Positions 4,631-52,400 are shown, counted from the first letter of the stretch. The stretch is DNA of 56,076 nucleotides from a bacterium (GCA_027064085.1 JAMOQH010000047.1:1-56076); one strand, 5' to 3'. Notes: generated by a model from the sequence alone, not told the origin. Program-made: numbers and translations.

Positions 4631-5665
4631 ATGATTAATAATTTAGTTTTTACAGAAAAATATTGGTTAATATTATTAATATTTATTCCTATTTTGGCAT
4701 ATTTATTTTTATTTAAAGGAAAAAAAAGAAATGGAGTTGTAATTCATTCTAATTTAAAAATATTAAAAGAATTAAGTAAAGGAAGAAGTAAAAAATTTAA
4801 ATATCTTCCAGCACTTCTTAGATTACTCTCTATTACTTTAATTATACTAGCACTTGCAAAACCAAAATTACTTAATAATAAAAAAGACATTGAAGTTAAA
4901 GGTATTGACATGGTTTTTGTTCTCGATATTTCAACATCAATGGCAGCCGCTGATTTTATACCTAAAGATAGATTAAATGTTGCAAAAGAAGTTATTAAGG
5001 ATTTTGTTGATAGTAGAAAAAACGATAGAATTGGTTTAGTTGTATTTAATGCTCTTTCTTATGTTCAAGCTCCATTAACTTTAGACCATAAAATTTTTAC
5101 AACATTACTAAAAGCAATAAATATGGATGAAATTAGAAATAAAGTAGAGCATGGATTACTACAAGATGGTACAGCTATTGGAAATGCTTTAGGAACAGCG
5201 GTTAATAGGCTTAAAGACTTAAATACAAAATCTAAAATTATTATTTTACTAACTGACGGAAGTAACAACAAAGGAAATATGACCCCCGAAAAAGCTGCAG
5301 AGTTAGCTAAAAAAACAAATATAAAGGTTTACCCTATTCTTGTAGGCAAACAAGGCAGAGTTCCATATCCAGCAGGTGTTGATATGCTAGGAAACATTCA
5401 ATACAACTATGTCAATAATTCAGTAAACCCAGAATTATTAAAAAAAATATCCAAAATTACAAATTCTAAATTTTATATTGCTCAAAATAGAGAAGAATTA
5501 AAAAAAGATTTAACAGATATTATTGATCATTTTGAGAAATCAAAATTTCAGGAACAAAATTTTGATAATATAGAAACATTTTTTGCTCCATTTATTTTGC
5601 TTGCATTTTTATTTTTATTAATTGAATTTTTATTAAGAGTAACTATTTATAAAAAATTATCTTAA
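4631..5665 (+). CDS. batA: BatA-like von Willebrand factor A membrane protein
   Basis: 344 aa. Two N-terminal transmembrane helices (about 9-27 and 58-77) precede a VWA domain (about 90-300) with the MIDAS motif D-I-S-T-S-M near 100 and the T-D-G-S near 215. A C-terminal transmembrane helix (about 312-335) follows. This is the architecture of BatA/BatB of aerotolerance operons. The last codons (T-I-Y-K-K-L-S-stop) lie in a 25-bp sequence that recurs at 9304-9328 on the far side of the restriction-modification island, so the gene's 3' end appears to have been an insertion target without being damaged. Confidence 0.85.
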   Translation: MINNLVFTEKYWLILLIFIPILAYLFLFKGKKRNGVVIHSNLKILKELSKGRSKKFKYLPALLRLLSITLIILALAKPKLLNNKKDIEVKGIDMVFVLDISTSMAAADFIPKDRLNVAKEVIKDFVDSRKNDRIGLVVFNALSYVQAPLTLDHKIFTTLLKAINMDEIRNKVEHGLLQDGTAIGNALGTAVNRLKDLNTKSKIIILLTDGSNNKGNMTPEKAAELAKKTNIKVYPILVGKQGRVPYPAGVDMLGNIQYNYVNNSVNPELLKKISKITNSKFYIAQNREELKKDLTDIIDHFEKSKFQEQNFDNIETFFAPFILLAFLFLLIEFLLRVTIYKKLS

Positions 5666-5666
5666 A
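5642..5666 (+). repeat. Left copy of 25-bp direct repeat flanking the R-M island
   Basis: Identical over 25 of 25 bases to 9304-9328. Similarity continues for about nine more bases with two differences. It contains the last eight codons of batA including the stop. Confidence 0.93.
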
Positions 5667-5727
5667 TATTCTCAATTTAAAACTTAGCTTTGCTAAATTA
5701 AGGAGTTGCAGTCTTTGTTTTTTTCAA

Positions 5728-5757
5728 TTGACAATTATAAAGAAAGTGATCTATTAT
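5728..5757 (+). promoter_or_regulatory. Candidate promoter of the R-M island
   Basis: TTGACA (5728-5733), 18-bp spacer, TATTAT (5752-5757). The -35 box is the centre of the small palindrome AATTGACAATT (5726-5736). The -10 box overlaps an ATG at 5756, so transcription would begin downstream of that ATG. This favours the TTG start at 5780. Confidence 0.5.
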
Positions 5758-5779
5758 GAGAGATAAAAAAGGAGAAACT

Positions 5780-6661
5780 TTGAATAGTCTAGCAATGGAA
5801 CAATTTTTTGATATAGAAAAAACAATAAAAGCACAACCTTTTATAAAGTGGGTTGGGGGTAAAAGAACTTTAGTAACCCGTTTAACAGAAATGATGCCCG
5901 AAAATTTTAATAATTATTTTGAGCCATTTGTTGGTGGAGGAGCTTTTTTATTTTATTTATATTCAGAAGAAATACTTAAAAATAGGAAAAAGTCAATTTT
6001 TGATATTAACTCAGAATTAATAAATACATATAATGTTGTTAAAAATACTCCTAATGAATTAATATCAAACTTAAAAAAATATAAAAAAAATCACAATAAA
6101 GAATTTTATTACGAAACAAGATTATTAGATAGACTGGAAGGATTTAAAACTAGTGATAAAATTTTAAGAGCGACAAGATTTATCTATTTGAATAAAACTT
6201 GTTTTAATGGCTTATATAGAGTAAATAAATCAGGTTATTTTAATGTTCCAATTGGAAGTTATAAAAATCCAAATATTGCAGATGAAAATATTATTTTAAA
6301 TGCAAGTAAAGCATTGCAAAATGTAAATATTTATAATTCTTCTTATAACAAAGTACTGGAATTTGCTAAAAAAGGAGATTTAGTTTATTTTGATCCTCCA
6401 TATTATCCTTTAAACAGAACTTCAAACTTTACTTCATACTCTGAAAATGATTTTTTAGAAAAAGAACAAGAAGAATTATTTAATGTTTTTAGAAAATTAG
6501 CCCAAAAAGGTGTTTTTGTTATGTTAAGTAATTCTGATACTGATTATATTAAAGATCTATATAAAGATTATGATATTAATATTGTTAATATGAATAGATT
6601 TATTAATAGTAAGGCTAGTGGTAGAGGAAAGGTTAGTGAAGTTGTTGTGAGGAGTTGGTAA
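5780..6661 (+). CDS. dam: DNA adenine methyltransferase, Dam/DpnM (D12) class
   Basis: 293 aa from the TTG start. It is an N6-adenine methyltransferase of the alpha (D12) class, the type that modifies GATC in Dam and DpnM, though specificity is not shown here. Motif X (IKWVGGK, about 22-28), motif I (FEPFVGGGAFLF, about 47-58) and catalytic motif IV (DPPY, 205-208) are all in the expected order. The start was chosen because AAGGAG lies 5 nt before TTG 5780 and the -10 box of a candidate promoter overlaps the alternative ATG at 5756, which has no clear ribosome site. It ends 1 nt before the next gene, a putative nuclease, as in a type II R-M pair. Confidence 0.9.
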   Translation: MNSLAMEQFFDIEKTIKAQPFIKWVGGKRTLVTRLTEMMPENFNNYFEPFVGGGAFLFYLYSEEILKNRKKSIFDINSELINTYNVVKNTPNELISNLKKYKKNHNKEFYYETRLLDRLEGFKTSDKILRATRFIYLNKTCFNGLYRVNKSGYFNVPIGSYKNPNIADENIILNASKALQNVNIYNSSYNKVLEFAKKGDLVYFDPPYYPLNRTSNFTSYSENDFLEKEQEELFNVFRKLAQKGVFVMLSNSDTDYIKDLYKDYDINIVNMNRFINSKASGRGKVSEVVVRSW

Positions 6662-6662
6662 A

Positions 6663-7247
6663 ATGAAAAAAGATGGAAAACAGGGGGATAGTACTAAAAC
6701 AGGTAAGGAATTTGAAGAAAAAGTTGATTTTATAAGAAAAGTAAATAAGTTAGAAGGATATTCTACTAAAAGTAAAAGTAAAAACAATAAGTATAAAACA
6801 TATATTTATGAAATTAAGTATAAGAATAAAGTAATTGCTGAATCCTTTAAAAAACATGCTTTTTATAGATATTTGAAAAATAAAGATTCTAATTTTAATT
6901 GGAAAAATATTATTTCAAAACAACTTTTACCAGATGATGCAATTTATGTTCATAAAAATAATACTATATATATTATTGAAATTAAATTTCAAGAAGAAGG
7001 TGGTTCAGGTTCTGTTGATGAGAAGCCTCAAACATGTTTTTTCAAAATAAAACAGTATAGAAAATTATTATATTCTTTTAATTATAATGTTGAATTTATT
7101 TATATTTTAAGCGATAAATTTAAAGATGAAAAATACAAGGATATGTTGGATTATATAAAAGAAGTGGGCTGTAAGTATTACTTTGATGAAATCAAGTTAA
7201 ATGAATTATGCTTTCCATCTATTAAGGAGAAAAATGGCATCAAATGA
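6663..7247 (+). CDS. Putative type II restriction endonuclease, PD-(D/E)XK fold
   Basis: 194 aa. A PD-(D/E)XK core is visible: L-P-D-D-A-I-Y at about 99-105, then I-I-E-I-K-F-Q at about 114-120, followed by GSGSVDEKPQTCFFKIKQY. The S-V-D-E-K-x-Q-T-x-x-F-K pattern is known to me from nucleases encoded next to methyltransferases. It follows the Dam-class gene with a 1-nt gap and overlaps the next nuclease gene by 14 nt, so all three are co-translated. It probably cuts the site protected by one of the two methyltransferases; which one cannot be told from sequence. Confidence 0.65.
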   Translation: MKKDGKQGDSTKTGKEFEEKVDFIRKVNKLEGYSTKSKSKNNKYKTYIYEIKYKNKVIAESFKKHAFYRYLKNKDSNFNWKNIISKQLLPDDAIYVHKNNTIYIIEIKFQEEGGSGSVDEKPQTCFFKIKQYRKLLYSFNYNVEFIYILSDKFKDEKYKDMLDYIKEVGCKYYFDEIKLNELCFPSIKEKNGIK

Positions 7248-8007
7248 ATCATGGGAAAAAATATTTAAAGATCATGGAATAAACGATCATGATTTTAATA
7301 AATCTCCATTTACAATTGATAGTAAAATGATAAAAGAATCTACACAAGTATTTAAGAAAACAGCTCAAAAAGAAGTTAGACTACTTTGCAAACAAGATTC
7401 AAGAAAAGATAGACCACAAGTTTTTATTGATAATGGTTTATTTTTATTACCTATTAAAAATGGAGTTTATTCAATAATTAAAGGAGAAGGATATATTGAT
7501 ATTCCCAAAATTGATTGCGATATAGAAAAGCATGAGTCAATTCTTGATTTTTGTTTAGATACATCTAAAACGGGTGATTCTGAAATGCAACATTTAGATT
7601 ATGCTTATGCAACAAGCCTTATTAGAACTTTTATGAATGATAATTCTCTTGTTTTAACAATAAGAGGAAGAAAGTATACTCCAAAAATTAATTTTAATGT
7701 GGGAAAGTTTTCTATTTATACAGAAAGTGTTCAAACAGAGGTTGATGCAGGTTATGAGGGAAAAAAACAAGTTGTATTAATCGAAGCAAAAAATTCAAAG
7801 ACAAAAGATACTATAATTAGACAACTTTACTATCCATTTAGGCAATGGCAAAAATATACAGATAAAAAAGTTGTATGTCTTTTCTTTGAGAGAGATAAAA
7901 AAACAGAAGTTTATAACATTTGGCAGTTTGAATTTACAGATATTAATAATTATAACAGTATTTCCTTAGTTAGAACTGCTAGATATAAAATAATTTGTAA
8001 AAACTAG
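7234..8007 (+). CDS. Second putative type II restriction endonuclease
   Basis: 257 aa from ATG 7234, which has AAGGAG 5 nt upstream; an in-frame ATG at 7201 inside the preceding gene has no site. The probable nuclease core is V-D-A-G-Y-E (about 180) followed by V-V-L-I-E-A-K-N (about 190-197) and R-Q-L-Y-Y-P-F-R-Q-W (about 210-219), a strand order compatible with PD-(D/E)XK enzymes. It starts M-A-S-N-E-S-W-E-K-I-F. I recognise the general type from R-M loci but not a named enzyme. After it a new promoter starts at 8026. Confidence 0.6.
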   Translation: MASNESWEKIFKDHGINDHDFNKSPFTIDSKMIKESTQVFKKTAQKEVRLLCKQDSRKDRPQVFIDNGLFLLPIKNGVYSIIKGEGYIDIPKIDCDIEKHESILDFCLDTSKTGDSEMQHLDYAYATSLIRTFMNDNSLVLTIRGRKYTPKINFNVGKFSIYTESVQTEVDAGYEGKKQVVLIEAKNSKTKDTIIRQLYYPFRQWQKYTDKKVVCLFFERDKKTEVYNIWQFEFTDINNYNSISLVRTARYKIICKN

Positions 8008-8025
8008 AACTTGTTTATAAATTAA

Positions 8026-8054
8026 TTGACATTGTTTATTTTTTAGGATACAAT
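8026..8054 (+). promoter_or_regulatory. Strong promoter inside the R-M island
   Basis: TTGACA (8026-8031), 17-bp spacer, TACAAT (8049-8054). The predicted transcript start is near 8061, downstream of the TTG start (8056) of the HTH gene. It may therefore mainly drive the two downstream genes, or the HTH start may be wrong. Confidence 0.7.
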
Positions 8055-8055
8055 A

Positions 8056-8298
8056 TTGAATACTATTGAAAGAGATATAAAAATATATCTCATAAAAAAT
8101 AATTTAAAACCATCTGATGTTTATAAGACATTAGGAATTGGGAGAGCAACATTTTACCAAGCTATAAGAAGTAATAATTTGAATAATAAGACTTTAAATA
8201 AAATCTTCGATTATTTAAATTTAGAGCTTGAGCTTGTTTTAAAGGAGCGTAAAAATGATAATGAATGTTCAAAAATACAAGAAACTATACCAGATTGA
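8056..8298 (+). CDS. Small HTH protein, possible R-M controller
   Basis: 80 aa. A helix-turn-helix of the XRE/Cro type is readable: SDVYKTLGIGRATFYQAIR (about 19-37) followed by N-K-T-L-N-K-I-F-D-Y-L. It sits between the nuclease pair and the second methyltransferase, where controller (C) proteins of R-M systems usually lie. The only reasonable in-frame start is TTG 8056 (AGGA 7 nt upstream). It begins 1 nt after a TACAAT box, so it is probably translated from read-through transcripts from upstream. It overlaps the next gene by 44 nt in another frame. Confidence 0.6.
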   Translation: MNTIERDIKIYLIKNNLKPSDVYKTLGIGRATFYQAIRSNNLNNKTLNKIFDYLNLELELVLKERKNDNECSKIQETIPD

Positions 8299-8551
8299 AG
8301 CAGATGCAATAAACTATCTAAATGATGAAATTCTTGAAAAATTTGTATTGCAAGGTAGTAAAAACTGGGATTTATACCTAAGTGAAAAAGATGATAATTA
8401 TTATTTTGATACCTTAAGTAATATTGAAGTTATAGAATTTAATACCCAAGAAAATATGTTAGAATATATGAAGAAAGTTCCTAAAGAATTATTTATAGAT
8501 TACTCAATTGAAAACAAAATTTTTTACATAGTACATTATGAAAAAAATTAA
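8255..8551 (+). CDS. Small protein of unknown function in the R-M island
   Basis: 98 aa, acidic, Tyr- and Asn-rich, with no signal peptide, membrane segment or recognised motif. GGAG lies 6 nt before ATG 8255 (a second ATG at 8261 is possible). It overlaps the HTH gene by 44 nt and the second methyltransferase by 14 nt, so it is translated as part of that unit. It could be an antitoxin-like partner of the HTH protein, a specificity or accessory subunit, or unrelated. None of these is shown by the sequence. Confidence 0.6.
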   Translation: MIMNVQKYKKLYQIEADAINYLNDEILEKFVLQGSKNWDLYLSEKDDNYYFDTLSNIEVIEFNTQENMLEYMKKVPKELFIDYSIENKIFYIVHYEKN

Positions 8552-9293
8552 AAAGCTAGCTCCTGAAAATTTTGAACAAGAAACATCAACTGTTTGGTCA
8601 TATCCAAGAAGAGGAAATTGGGCAACACATAATTCAAAATATAGAGGAAATTGGGCTCCAGAAGTTGTGAGAAATATAATATTAAGATATTCTAAAAAGG
8701 GAGATTATTTGTTAGATCCAATGATAGGTGGAGGAACAACAGCTATTGAAGCAAAACTTCTTAATAGAAATTTAATAGCCTATGATATAAACCCTAAAGC
8801 AATTAAACTAACAAATGAATTGCTTGATTTTGAAATAGATGAAGATTTTGATAATAAAATTACCATTGAGTTAAATGATGCAAGAAATTTATCTAAAATA
8901 GATGATAATTCTATAGATTTAATTTTAACCCACCCTCCTTATGTTGATATAATTAAATATTCAGATAAAAAGATAGAAGAAGATATTTCTAATATTCATG
9001 ACTTGGATAAATTTTGTGATGAAATCGAAATAATCGCAAAAGAATTATATAGAGTGACTAAACAAAATAGATATTGTGCTATTTTAATGGGAGATACTAG
9101 AAGAAATAAAATGTATCAACCATTAGCATTCATGGTAATGCAAAGATTTTTGAAAGTTGGGTTTAAATTAAAAGAAGATATCATAAAGCATCAACATAAT
9201 TGTAAAGCAACTGGTTTTTGGGCTCAAAAGTCTATTAAATATAATTTCCTTCTTATTATGCATGAACATTTATTCATATTCAAAAAAACTTGA
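8538..9293 (+). CDS. DNA methyltransferase, N4/N6 beta-type (second MTase of island)
   Basis: 251 aa. The N-terminal block TVWSYPRRGNWATHNSKYRG (about 16-35) and the order IV after I mark a site-specific amino-methyltransferase. Motif I is LLDPMIGGGTTAIEAKL (about 58-74) in place of the common F-x-G-S-G-T-T. The catalytic motif IV is T-H-P-P-Y (about 133-137), a variant of D/S-P-P-Y/W. It starts inside the preceding gene (14-nt overlap) and ends 10 nt before the right flanking repeat. It probably protects a different site, or the other strand of an asymmetric site, from the Dam-class enzyme. Confidence 0.85.
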   Translation: MKKIKKLAPENFEQETSTVWSYPRRGNWATHNSKYRGNWAPEVVRNIILRYSKKGDYLLDPMIGGGTTAIEAKLLNRNLIAYDINPKAIKLTNELLDFEIDEDFDNKITIELNDARNLSKIDDNSIDLILTHPPYVDIIKYSDKKIEEDISNIHDLDKFCDEIEIIAKELYRVTKQNRYCAILMGDTRRNKMYQPLAFMVMQRFLKVGFKLKEDIIKHQHNCKATGFWAQKSIKYNFLLIMHEHLFIFKKT

Positions 9294-9303
9294 TCTATTT
9301 TAC

Positions 9304-9328
9304 ACTATTTATAAAAAATTATCTTAAA
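9304..9328 (+). repeat. Right copy of 25-bp direct repeat flanking the R-M island
   Basis: Identical to 5642-5666. It still encodes a ghost of the batA C-terminus (T-I-Y-K-K-L-S-stop) in the plus direction and contains the true stop codon of aroQ (complement of 9324-9326). Confidence 0.93.
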
Positions 9329-9761
9329 GATTATCAACAATATACTTTGCAGCTAAATAATAACCATAATTACCAGCTCCAGAAATCACTAAATCTACAT
9401 TTTTAGCAGTATATGATTCTTGCCTAAAATTTTCTCTTTTATACAAATTAGTTAAATGAACTTCAACTTTTAATTTATTACTAATAATTTCTAAAGTATC
9501 ACTAATTGCAACACTAGTGTGAGTATACCCTGCGGGATTAATGATTATACCTATTATAGTTTCATCGCTCATCAAACTTTGGAGTTTATTAATAATCTCA
9601 CCCTCTATATTTGATTGAAAATATTCAATTTCTATAAATTTTTCTATTTTATTAATAATTTCATCTAAATCTATCCTAGATTGATATATTTCTTTTCTTT
9701 TTTTAACTAAATTAAGATTTGGCCCTTCAATGAGAACTATCTTATTGCTTCTTGAAACCAT
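9324..9761 (-). CDS. aroQ: Type II 3-dehydroquinate dehydratase
   Basis: 145 aa. It converts 3-dehydroquinate to 3-dehydroshikimate in the shikimate pathway and is cytosolic. Family motifs are present in order: E-G-P-N-L-N-L (12-18), catalytic Tyr26, Q-S-N-x-E-G (49-54), N-P-A-G-Y-T-H-T-S (75-83), catalytic His102 in V-H-L-T-N, and the R-E-x-F-R block (109-113). The His usual in Q-S-N-H-E-G is Ile and the N-terminal loop is divergent. It is the last gene of the pil operon and overlaps the Roadblock gene by 25 nt. Confidence 0.9.
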   Translation of the reverse strand: MVSRSNKIVLIEGPNLNLVKKRKEIYQSRIDLDEIINKIEKFIEIEYFQSNIEGEIINKLQSLMSDETIIGIIINPAGYTHTSVAISDTLEIISNKLKVEVHLTNLYKRENFRQESYTAKNVDLVISGAGNYGYYLAAKYIVDNL

Positions 9762-10087
9762 AGACTGTTTTTTCTAACTACAAATCTAGCTTTTCCAATA
9801 TTACCAGACTCTTTCATAAATAAAATAATAAAATAATAATCACTTATTGGCTTGATTAATACTGTATACTTATTAGTAATCATTATCTCTTCTTTGATAT
9901 TATCATTTACAGACTCAAGAATTATTGATATTTTATTGATTACAGTAGAAAACTCTATAGTCAATCCTTCTAAAACTTCATCGTTAAATGTACTATCAAC
10001 AATAATCCCATCTTTACCTATTAATGCAATTTCTTGTAAATCTTCACAGGATTCTTTTATTTTATTAAATTTTTCCCTAAAGCTCAT
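9737..10087 (-). CDS. Roadblock/LC7-domain protein
   Basis: 116 aa. The pattern A-L-I-G-K-D-G-I-I-V-D-S near residues 20-33, a long amphipathic helix and the C-terminal strand pair I-K-P-I-S-D-Y-Y-F-I-I-L-F fit Roadblock/LC7 proteins such as MglB, which regulate small Ras-like GTPases in polarity and motility. No cognate GTPase is in the window. Its position in the operon of the type IV pilus machine suggests a regulatory role for pilus activity (inference). It overlaps the upstream gene by 11 nt. Confidence 0.65.
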   Translation of the reverse strand: MSFREKFNKIKESCEDLQEIALIGKDGIIVDSTFNDEVLEGLTIEFSTVINKISIILESVNDNIKEEIMITNKYTVLIKPISDYYFIILFMKESGNIGKARFVVRKNSLWFQEAIR

Positions 10088-17976: not shown

Positions 17977-19554
17977 TTAGAATCTACTTCTTAGATATAT
18001 TGCAAAGCCAAGTTTTTTTGTTTCACTATCACTTCTTATCACTCTTTTACTTTCTTCGTCTACTGTTGAATCGTTCTGATCAATTAAATAAGACAACTCA
18101 CCAGAAACTTCAGTCCCTTTTGATAACTCATAAAATATAGAAAATTTTAATGAAGTAATTGGTTTAACATCTACATCTGAAGGGAGTCTTACTTTATTTT
18201 TGGTTAGACCACCAGTAAAAGAGGATTGATCTTCTCTATCTTTTATAACAATGATAGAATCACTACCCTCGCCTTTATATGATGCAGGCATTTTATAACC
18301 ATACAAGAACCCCAAAGTCAAATGCTCCATCAAAGTATACTCTCCACCAATTGAAAACATTTTCTCTGTTGTTAATTTAGAATTACTAGTAATAGATTCA
18401 AATGCAGTTAATCCGGGAACATTAAACAATAAGAACTGAGGATTTCTCATAATAAAATCCATATTTACTTTAAATGAACCTGATGATACTCTAAATTTTA
18501 AATCAGTTGCCCAACCATTAAAATCAATTAAATTATCTCTATTATCTGCATCCCTTAACTGTTCTGTCAAATAAACGCCTTCAAAAGAAGCAACAAATCC
18601 TAGACCACTACCCAAGTCTTTATTTTCAGTTTTTTTTGCATCATCCTTTTTTGCGATATCTTTCAAATCATCTCTAGGGTCTATATTTCTGTAAACTTTC
18701 ATTACATCTGAAACACTTAATGTTGTATTATATCTATAAGATAATCTTCCCGAAATACCTTTTGCATAAATTCTATGTCCAAAAACATTTTCTTTATCTA
18801 AGTCTACATCATTTCTACTCTGTAAAGGATTTGTTCCTTTATCAAAAAGTCCAGCATGCACATCTAGTTTAATCATATCTGCCAAATCAAGATAAGCTCC
18901 ACTAAGAATTCCCCATGTTGTAGATATTGTATCCTTTGTTTCAAGCCCATTTGGCCCTTCTTCAATTAAGTTTGTATTAAAAGAACGAGTTTTAAAGCCT
19001 AAGAACAAACCTGCCATTTCACTTGTCCAACTAAATTTAATCCCAGGCACAGGAGTTTTTTTATTTATTTTACTCTTAGGCCACATTGATTGTCCTCCCC
19101 AAGATAAATCATAAGTCCAACCAAGTAAAAATCTATCTGAATTATATGGAAAAGCTAAAATAGAAAACTTACTATCTCCCATCTTGTATTGAATTCTTAC
19201 ATAAGAACCATCTTCTTTTAATTTTGTTAATAAGTCCCCAGTTTCATTATTAAAAACAGATAAATTAAATACAAATGCACTTTCTGTTGTTAATCCTTCA
19301 ATAAAACCATCAAATTTTTTATATACAACTAACTGTGACTCTGTTTCATCACCGGTTTTATATGTATTTAATCCTTCATTAAATAATTGAGTATTAGTAT
19401 CTCCAAATCTTGGAGAGTTACTTCTTCTTGATGTTTCAAAAATATTATCATCACTAAACTTAAAAGTCACTTGTGAATCAATCCAATCGCCAGCTAATAA
19501 GGTAGAACTCAGGCTTAAGAATACTAATAAAGATAAAATCATTGCTTTTTTCAT
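17977..19554 (-). CDS. Outer-membrane beta-barrel protein
   Basis: 525 aa. A signal peptide (1-21, ending LLAG) precedes many alternating amphipathic strands. The chain ends in Phe (FAIYLRSRF), the usual C-terminal signature for BAM-assembled barrels. Repeated short loops rich in Asp/Lys fit extracellular turns. No known porin family is recognised. It follows two lipoprotein genes by 14 nt, so it is the last gene of that operon and may act with them in nutrient (perhaps nucleotide or phosphate) uptake. Confidence 0.7.
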   Translation of the reverse strand: MKKAMILSLLVFLSLSSTLLAGDWIDSQVTFKFSDDNIFETSRRSNSPRFGDTNTQLFNEGLNTYKTGDETESQLVVYKKFDGFIEGLTTESAFVFNLSVFNNETGDLLTKLKEDGSYVRIQYKMGDSKFSILAFPYNSDRFLLGWTYDLSWGGQSMWPKSKINKKTPVPGIKFSWTSEMAGLFLGFKTRSFNTNLIEEGPNGLETKDTISTTWGILSGAYLDLADMIKLDVHAGLFDKGTNPLQSRNDVDLDKENVFGHRIYAKGISGRLSYRYNTTLSVSDVMKVYRNIDPRDDLKDIAKKDDAKKTENKDLGSGLGFVASFEGVYLTEQLRDADNRDNLIDFNGWATDLKFRVSSGSFKVNMDFIMRNPQFLLFNVPGLTAFESITSNSKLTTEKMFSIGGEYTLMEHLTLGFLYGYKMPASYKGEGSDSIIVIKDREDQSSFTGGLTKNKVRLPSDVDVKPITSLKFSIFYELSKGTEVSGELSYLIDQNDSTVDEESKRVIRSDSETKKLGFAIYLRSRF

Positions 19555-49437: not shown

Positions 49438-52400
49438 TTAATAGATATCTCCACTTACACCATTTTCACCAGAAAATCCACTAGCAGAACCAGCTCCACC
49501 ACCATTACCACCTAATGAAGTTGTACAAGTCCAAGAATTTAAGTTTGGATTTGAACTAAATCTATAAATACAGTATGACACCCCTCCAGCTCCGCCACCG
49601 CCAGCTCCGCCAGCTCCGCCAGCTTTAGCATAACCACCGTTACCTCCATTTCCTGATTCTCCACCTGAGCCACCACCGCCAATATTACCTGGACTACCCC
49701 CTAAAGCACCAGCCCCGCCTTGGCCTCCATTACCACCCTGACCTGCATTAATATGAACATTATTAAGTGTAGGATTTGAATTATTCAAAAATATTCCAAA
49801 TGAAGCAGTTCCAGCTTTACCACCAGCTCCTCCTTGGCCACCACAACCACCAGCGGCACCACCACCACCACCAGCTCCTGCTCCATCATTAACCCAGGTT
49901 CCATATTGAGCAGCACCGCCGCCGCCGCCGCCGCCGCCTTTACCATACATACCTTCAGAACCATTATTCCCTGCTTTACCTACCCAATTGCCTGTAATAA
50001 TATCTCCTAAAGCTGTTCCTCCTAAACCATTTGCACCATTTGCACCACTTACTGTTGCAGAAGAACCAGCAGATCCATTATTAGCACTTCCGCTTCCTCC
50101 ACTTCCTCCTGATATACCCGCAGCACTATTTGCACCACTATAACCTGAATGATGATTATCTTTACCACCACCACCACCATTTCCACCATTTGCAGAAGGA
50201 CAAGCAGCATTTTTTCCACCGGCTCCACCGGCTCCGGGGGCATCTTCATCATCATTACTTCCATTTCCTCCTCTTAAACCATTTCCTCCATCAGCACCTT
50301 TAGTCGCAATATAAATTTGGTTTCCATTTAAACCACTCATTCCATTTCCTGCATTAATAATTAAATTTTGTAATTTTAAATTATTGCCAGAATTCAATAT
50401 ATTAATACCTATAGAATTTTCTGGATAAACAGATGCATTTGCTGAATTAATAGTAAAGCCATCAATATATGTATCTTGGGTAACATCAGTACAAGTTATT
50501 CCATGGGCTGCTACCATAATTTTAGAAATATTTGCATTGATATTTCTTTCCCAAGAAATATCATCATAACCTCCAAAAATAGAAACACCATCATTTGTAA
50601 TAGATAAATTTTCTGCATAATCACCAGCTGCAACAATTATTTGTGTATATCCTAAAACAGTAGCTTGATTTATTGCATAACTAATTGTTTTAAATGGGCT
50701 ACTCATAGTTCCATTATTTGAATTACTACCAACCCTGCTTGAAACAAAATAAGCATCATTAATATTACCGTCTATTCCATCACAGTTATGATCAATTCCA
50801 TCTGGAATATCTTGAAAAGTATCAAAAGTACAGCTGTATTCACAACCATTACTATCATCATTATCCAAATTATAATAATTGATATTACATGATATCAGTT
50901 TACATTGTCCATTTTCGCATGATAATTCAGCATTTACCATATTAGAACAACTATCAAACAAATGTTCATTTTCCTCATCAATTTGTTCATTACAGTTGTT
51001 ATCAACGCCATCACAAATATCATAAGAAGGGTTTAAAGCATCACAATCATCCCAACCAGCTTGCCCTAAACATCTTCTTTCACCAGAGCAGGTTCCAAAT
51101 TCATTAGTTATTTCACAGCTTCCATCTAAGTTTTCGTCTATTTCATTATTACAATCATTATCTATTCCATCACAAACCTCTAAAGCGGGAGTACTTGCAT
51201 TACACTCGCCCCAACCTTGAGCTCCTTGACAACTTTGAACACCAGTACAAAAACCAATTTCGTTTGTTACTCTACAACCTAAGTCATCTAATTCATCAAC
51301 CTCATTATTACAATTATCATCAATTCCATTACAAACTTCAACACTAGGTATTCTAGCATCACAAGACTCTACACCATTAACACATATTAAATTACCTACG
51401 CATGTCCCCATTTCATTCGTATTTTCACATGATTTTACTGCAACATTATCAATAATACCATCACAATCATTATCAATGTTATCACAAACTTCTTCACTAG
51501 GAGAAGTTCCATTACAATCGCTCCAGCCATTTTCGGTACAAATTTTATTACCTGAACATGTTCCAAAATTATTAGTAATATCACAATTTAATGTTAAATT
51601 AAGATTATCATTATTACAATCACAAGAATTTCCAATTGGAGAACATAATTTAAAAATATCTCCTGCTATATCTGTATCATTACAACTAAATCCAGTATTA
51701 CAGTGTTCACTATACTTACAACTATCTAAGCATGATTTTACACCATCGATTTCAACACACTTGCCACCAAAAACAGAACAGTCACTATCATCATCACAAC
51801 TATCACAAGAATAATTTAAAATAGGCGCACAAATTGACTCACCATTGTATGGATAACAATCCCAATTATCACCACAACCATCTTCATCTGCAAGCTCACA
51901 TTTTAAAGAACAGAATTTATTCTCTCCAACTTGTATACATAAGCCACTTAAGCAATCTTCGTTTTCTGTACACTCTGTTTGATATTGACTTAAAATAGAT
52001 TCTTCACATAAACCACTTGTTGGATTACAAGCTTGTTTATTTTCACATTTATTAACTTCACAAATAGGTTTACACACTCCATCTAAAGGGTCACACATTT
52101 GGCTATTTTCTTGACAAGTAACACTTGAACAATCTATTTCACATTCTCCAGTTAAAGGAGCACATTTTTCATTTGCAGCACATTTACCCTCAGGGCAGTT
52201 TAAATCACAAATTCCTGTTGTTTCATTGCAGTATTCAGTAACTTCACAAGCTCCGCTATTTAAACACTCTGCTTTACATAATGCATCACTAGTATCACAT
52301 TTAAAATGTTCCTCACATGTAACCTTAGAACAATCCGGCTCACATAAACCAGTTAAGATGTCACAAGTTTCATTAGTTGCACACTTTTCCTCATAACAAT

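Follow-up and report, generated by a model that had tools for sequence, protein, structure and literature searches.

A predicted restriction-modification island probably inserted with target duplication at the convergent batA-aroQ junction

How does a cluster of defence genes come to lie between two intact host genes when it encodes no enzyme for its own movement? The question is raised by a stretch of 56,076 nucleotides (GCA_027064085.1 JAMOQH010000047.1:1-56076), hereafter the window, which is one entire contig (C47) of a metagenome-assembled draft genome (G000; 3,649,757 bases, 195 contigs). In the window, a predicted restriction-modification (R-M) island of six open reading frames (ORFs) lies between batA and aroQ and is bounded by a 25-bp direct repeat. 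We believe that the island was probably inserted without an integrase at the convergent batA-aroQ junction, with duplication of the target. An earlier note on this DNA had proposed a target duplication that left both host genes intact, and the analysis supports that proposal.

The repeat at the batA-aroQ junction

The junction is defined by the following features.

4631-5665, plus strand: batA, BatA/VWA membrane protein (ORF; Pfam BatA and VWA; orthologue in the related genome G001 64% identical)
5642-5666, plus strand: left copy of the 25-bp repeat, the true batA 3' end with its stop (exact repeat; the last 24 bases of batA make up most of the copy)
9304-9328, plus strand: right copy of the 25-bp repeat, a ghost batA end overlapping the aroQ stop (exact repeat)
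9324-9761, minus strand: aroQ, type II dehydroquinase, intact (PF01220, 7.8e-38)

The 25-mer ACTATTTATAAAAAATTATCTTAAA was exact at 5642-5666 and 9304-9328, and a genome-wide search found these two copies only. This unique pair bears out the 25-base identity that had been claimed earlier, and it excludes a common dispersed repeat. In the window, no third copy with up to three mismatches was found (0 expected from shuffled sequence), and the closest other match in the sequence scanned had 4 mismatches. The 25-mer is the longest exact dispersed direct repeat of the window; the sole longer repeat is a tandem one at 75-93.

The coding sequence of batA ends with TCT TAA (protein end TIYKKLS, stop at 5663-5665). 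At the other side of the island, the stop of aroQ, read on the minus strand, occupies 9324-9326 and the ghost batA stop occupies 9325-9327, and the two overlap as TTAA. The right copy is non-coding for batA and continues directly into the opposite-strand aroQ stop. The ORFs thus confirm the earlier description, in which the real batA end is on the left and its ghost, joined to the aroQ stop, on the right. The case for a former adjacency of batA and aroQ rests mainly on this ghost. A terminator-like hairpin was looked for at the junction as an explanation of the perfect ghost, and none of note was found.

Predicted gene content of the island

The six ORFs lie at 5756-9293, between the repeats. 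They are listed here with two promoter-like matches.

5728-5757, plus strand: promoter-like TTGACA-18-TATTAT before M1 (consensus match only)
5756-6661, plus strand: M1, Dam/D12-family adenine methyltransferase (PF02086, E 8.6e-64; TIGR00571; PADLOC MTase_II)
6663-7247, plus strand: R1, putative PD-(D/E)XK nuclease (PDD...EIK motif read by eye; PDDEXK_11 below cut-off)
7237-8007, plus strand: R2, DUF6996/DUF6997 type II restriction-enzyme homologue (PF22518, 5.2e-48; PF22515, 2e-21; PADLOC REase_II, 1.6e-33)
8026-8054, plus strand: promoter-like TTGACA-17-TACAAT before the helix-turn-helix gene (consensus match only)
8056-8298, plus strand: small Cro/C1-type helix-turn-helix protein, possible control protein (PF13443, 3.7e-5)
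8255-8551, plus strand: small ORF (no Pfam, PADLOC or NCBIfam match)
8538-9293, plus strand: M2, N4/N6 DNA methyltransferase with permuted motif order (PF01555, 5.2e-26; PADLOC MTase_II over the full length, 1.4e-90)

Among these six ORFs, Pfam, PADLOC and NCBIfam gave no match to a recombinase, integrase or transposase, in agreement with the earlier description of a six-gene island without integrase. Two methylases, one restriction-endonuclease homologue and one weak PD-(D/E)XK ORF stand in one cluster, which is type II R-M content, and by the same three databases the cargo is a predicted R-M system. Both promoter-like matches were no commoner than in shuffled sequence. No relative of R1 with a solved structure was found.

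R2 is 256 amino acids long from the ATG at 7237, or 268 from a possible upstream ATG at 7201. Its homologues on plasmids have about 420-435 amino acids; R2 is shorter by about 165 and its C-terminal part is missing. R1 was considered as this missing part and was ruled out, as the two show no similarity. M1 and R2 are 45% and 30% identical, respectively, to proteins of Stanieria. A DNA adenine methylase gene lies directly beside an R2 homologue on plasmids of Stanieria cyanosphaera, Megamonas funiformis and Enterococcus gallinarum. Judged by this gene order, the predicted M1-R2 pair is a real unit that recurs on plasmids. The island resembles the plasmid pairs in holding methylase and DUF6997 endonuclease genes together, but its R2 is without the C-terminal part and the PD-(D/E)XK-like R1 stands between M1 and R2.

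In the searched genomes of the family and the phylum the restriction gene was not found, and the single match elsewhere was weak and came from outside the phylum; relatives therefore do not all carry the same genes between batA and aroQ. The D12 methylase family was absent from the related genomes G001 and G002. These absences are consistent with gain by transfer. A search of IMG/VR for relatives of the island returned no island, just a 34% methylase. Elsewhere in G000, a 3.3-kb contig (L098, G000:C42) carries three to four tandem N4/N6 methyltransferase paralogues.

Repeats around rpn-family nuclease genes

The same genome was scanned (1.33 of 3.65 Mb) for direct repeats other than paralogous genes and CRISPR arrays. 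A blind pass covered 313 ORFs of 220-420 amino acids with 400 bp on each side. Three of them reached a repeat score of at least 30, and all three were rpn-family (PD-(D/E)XK) nuclease genes. These were the only ORFs of middle size in the scan with comparable repeats tightly around them, and their repeats likewise carry host sequence; in this way the genome itself lends support to insertion with duplication. With two cases from other genera of the phylum, the repeats are as follows.

L076 (G000:C20), 8608-8693 and 9684-9769: 86 bp, exact, around an rpn-like PF04754 gene, between convergent amidohydrolase and DnaJ-domain genes
L168 (G000:C69), 1267-1315 and 2446-2494: 49 bp, one mismatch, around a PF04754 gene
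L063 (G000:C7), 18196-18238 and 19278-19320: 43 bp, one mismatch, around a PF12784 gene
L234 (G012:C235), 1387-1430 and 2429-2472: 44 bp, exact, around an rpn gene of another genus
L244 (G024:C157), 1050-1090 and 2089-2129: 41 bp, exact, around an rpn gene of another genus

Seven rpn-family genes were counted among the 313 ORFs, which gives 3/7 against 0/306 (hypergeometric P of about 7e-6, calculated by hand after the pattern had been noticed). In the control, such repeats flanked none of 23 batA loci, against 5 of 25 on the rpn side (Fisher P 0.05). Three of the five rpn cases (L171, which is the same insertion as L076; L234; L244) lie at or beside a convergent 3'-end junction. As at batA-aroQ, the repeats in these three include the terminus of one host gene or of both. 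No rpn repeat of at least 41 bp was found outside the phylum; one of 31 bp in G066 looks dispersed. Diverged relatives of the 86-bp repeat occur at other places in its genome, and a dispersed repeat may be involved there. No empty site was found for the rpn cases, and G001 and G002 do not share the gene neighbourhood of the one rpn insertion that was compared.

Studies of rpn genes have described nuclease-driven, RecA-independent recombination (PMC5350276), and a survey of the family stated explicitly that no target-site duplications could be identified (PMC10327210). The repeats in this phylum differ from that statement. The rpn/YhgA-like genes (PF04754) of this phylum resemble the R-M island in showing direct repeats made of host sequence, in many cases where two genes converge; they are single nuclease genes and not R-M systems. 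The repeats around single rpn-family genes are a more interesting result than the R-M island itself.

At least 20 rpn-family matches were present in G000. Many of them are cut off at contig ends, and the family therefore probably breaks the assembly. Several other repeats were seen in the same genome. The last 35 bases of an AAA-ATPase_like/PDDEXK_9 gene recur, in low-complexity sequence, 160 bp upstream of it (L104, G000:C49, 7905-7939 and 9593-9627). Imperfect palindromic repeats, integron attC-like by eye, surround a ThsB-type TIR gene and a TPR-S gene (L074, G000:C18, 1851-1996 and 3736-3789), and this region is possibly a cassette carrying a defence system. A CRISPR-like array at 55-1700 of L095 (G000:C39) has a repeat that includes CTTTTTACTTTACCTATGAGGAATTGAAAC. 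A perfect duplication of 2.95 kb (L062, G000:C6, 8022-10980 and 14622-17580) holds iron-sulfur, multiheme and cytochrome-like genes beside two diverged oxidoreductase large-subunit genes. The window has short tandem repeats at 75-126 and 49598-49940; those at 49.6-49.9 kb are GC-rich (CCG, CCGCCAGCT) within otherwise 27% G+C sequence.

How the island may have been inserted

In the explanation that we consider probable, an R-M island of about 3.64 kb (5667-9303) without a recombinase of its own would have entered a pre-existing batA-aroQ junction at the point where the two stops overlapped. Recombinase-free joining may have taken place at a staggered or doubly nicked break, and filling-in of the offset breaks would have produced the target duplication. 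Since at least 25 bp of the target would have been duplicated, each host gene would have kept its own end. Such insertions may survive at convergent 3' ends because no gene is broken there. The direct repeats would now permit precise loss or amplification, and the island may be retained through addiction. Addiction is generally known as a force that retains R-M systems in their hosts.

Insertion of this kind has been reported. R-M systems are described as inserting without any mobile-element gene and with target duplications that are long and differ in length (PMC3874152, PMC3031569 and PMC1643837, citing Nobusato 2000 and Furuta 2010). This mode, insertion with long target duplication (ILTD), shares with the present island the R-M cargo, the lack of a transposase or integrase and a direct repeat of host sequence at both ends; the repeat here differs in its position, precisely where the stops of two convergent genes overlap. 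The H47 genomic island of E. coli is integrase-less and moves between imperfect direct repeats without RecA (PMC5426353). It is also small, with no site-specific recombinase and with direct repeats at its ends. Its own repeats are imperfect and about 145 bp long, its cargo differs, and its excision was measured. Genomic islands of the integrase type, with att at a gene 3' end, encode a tyrosine or serine integrase, and none is present among the six ORFs here. For site-specific capture, which the earlier note had offered beside target duplication, no positive evidence was obtained: there is no integrase, and the 25-mer is used nowhere else in the genome. The footprint seen here is already known for R-M genes, and the island is one more example of it, from an uncultured lineage.

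Several observations weigh against insertion with target duplication. The batA gene was searched in 99 relatives and aroQ in the family, whose two other sequenced species, G001 and G002, were the only close relatives. An empty site was seen in no relative, and batA and aroQ are not adjacent in G001 or G002. In G001, batA is followed by acetyltransferase-like and phosphoesterase-like ORFs (translations read by eye), and aroQ lies on a separate contig and adjoins an ABC-transporter-like gene. The downstream neighbours of aroQ in G002 are different again. Because batA in G001, and aroQ in both genomes, have other neighbours, there is no orthologous junction for comparison. The repeat is 25 bp long (47 bp at 83%), against about 100 bp in published ILTD. 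The G+C content of the island (24.5%) equals that of batA and aroQ and gives no foreign signal, although this is a weak test at such AT-richness.

The sequence beyond the repeat also bears on the question, and here one further feature has to be named.

5667-5688, minus strand: possible decayed aroQ terminus (14/22 identical to the true aroQ end; suggestive only)

To the right of the repeat, the two flanks match at 7 of the next 9 bases, as the earlier note had read them, and at 14 of the next 22. The segments 5642-5688 and 9304-9350 are accordingly identical at 39 of 47 positions; to the left of 5642, the flanks show no similarity whatever. Anchored random window pairs reached 14/22 with P 0.0016, and AT-rich pairs with P 0.0056. 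Only this end-anchored comparison was significant; a gapped local alignment of the two right flanks was not (P 0.25). The two termini do read I-E-N-I-stop and V-D-N-L-stop, as had been noted, but an in-frame stop interrupts the left remnant (AKF*IENI* against AAKYIVDNL*). The left flank is suggestive of a diverged aroQ end but does not establish one. The two ghosts have decayed unevenly, with 0/22 differences in the batA ghost and 8/22 in the aroQ ghost (Fisher P 0.004). If the left flank is a decayed aroQ end, this also counts against our explanation, since free drift after one duplication of about 47 bp predicts ghosts that are alike. Either a duplication of about 25 bp stands beside a chance likeness to aroQ, or the island brought a diverged aroQ end, or selection acted on the right-hand ghost. 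No hairpin terminator was seen that would support the last of these.

An island that brought its own copy of the target, as the earlier note had suggested, would account for the contrast between a perfect ghost and a decayed one. This leads to integration of the Campbell type, in which a circular island with the 25-bp core and a diverged aroQ fragment, older and acquired in an earlier host, is integrated by a host or in-trans recombinase or by RecA-independent recombination. Such an event accounts for a perfect core beside an imperfect flank, and integrase-less movement between imperfect repeats is on record for the H47 island. It depends on a similarity of 22 bases (P about 0.002-0.006) that includes an in-frame stop, the island is without a recombinase, and the 25-mer has no second use in the genome. 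We regard it as unlikely. The match in composition between island and host would also suit homologous replacement from a related strain that already bore the island; the repeat would then be old, its copies held identical by gene conversion or because the aroQ 3' flank is under selection. A role in termination is conceivable for the T-run that follows aroQ; the junction has no terminator-like hairpin, however, and this account merely shifts the original insertion to another strain, so that we give it little credence. An artefact of assembly or binning at the repeat would be conceivable in a draft metagenome-assembled genome of so many contigs, and we consider it most improbable. The genes are intact on both sides, rpn-family loci of the same architecture occur in other assemblies, and the usual short-read assemblers end on k-mers longer than the 25 bp of this repeat.

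Insertion of the island with target duplication thus remains the explanation that we prefer, and the rpn genes invite a wider one. Tentatively, and with more doubt than assent, one may suppose that a single recombinase-free process inserts nuclease-encoding defence genes in general, both R-M islands and single rpn genes. The inserted nuclease would itself make the offset cuts, and the duplications of 25-86 bp would survive mainly at convergent ends. If this is true, a characteristic distance between the cuts would account for the repeats of 41-49 bp found in all but one of the five rpn cases, and the R-M island, with its 47-bp similarity, would show an older instance of that distance. The rpn repeats bear on whether these "putative transposases" insert with target duplication, and they supply concrete sites at which this can be examined.

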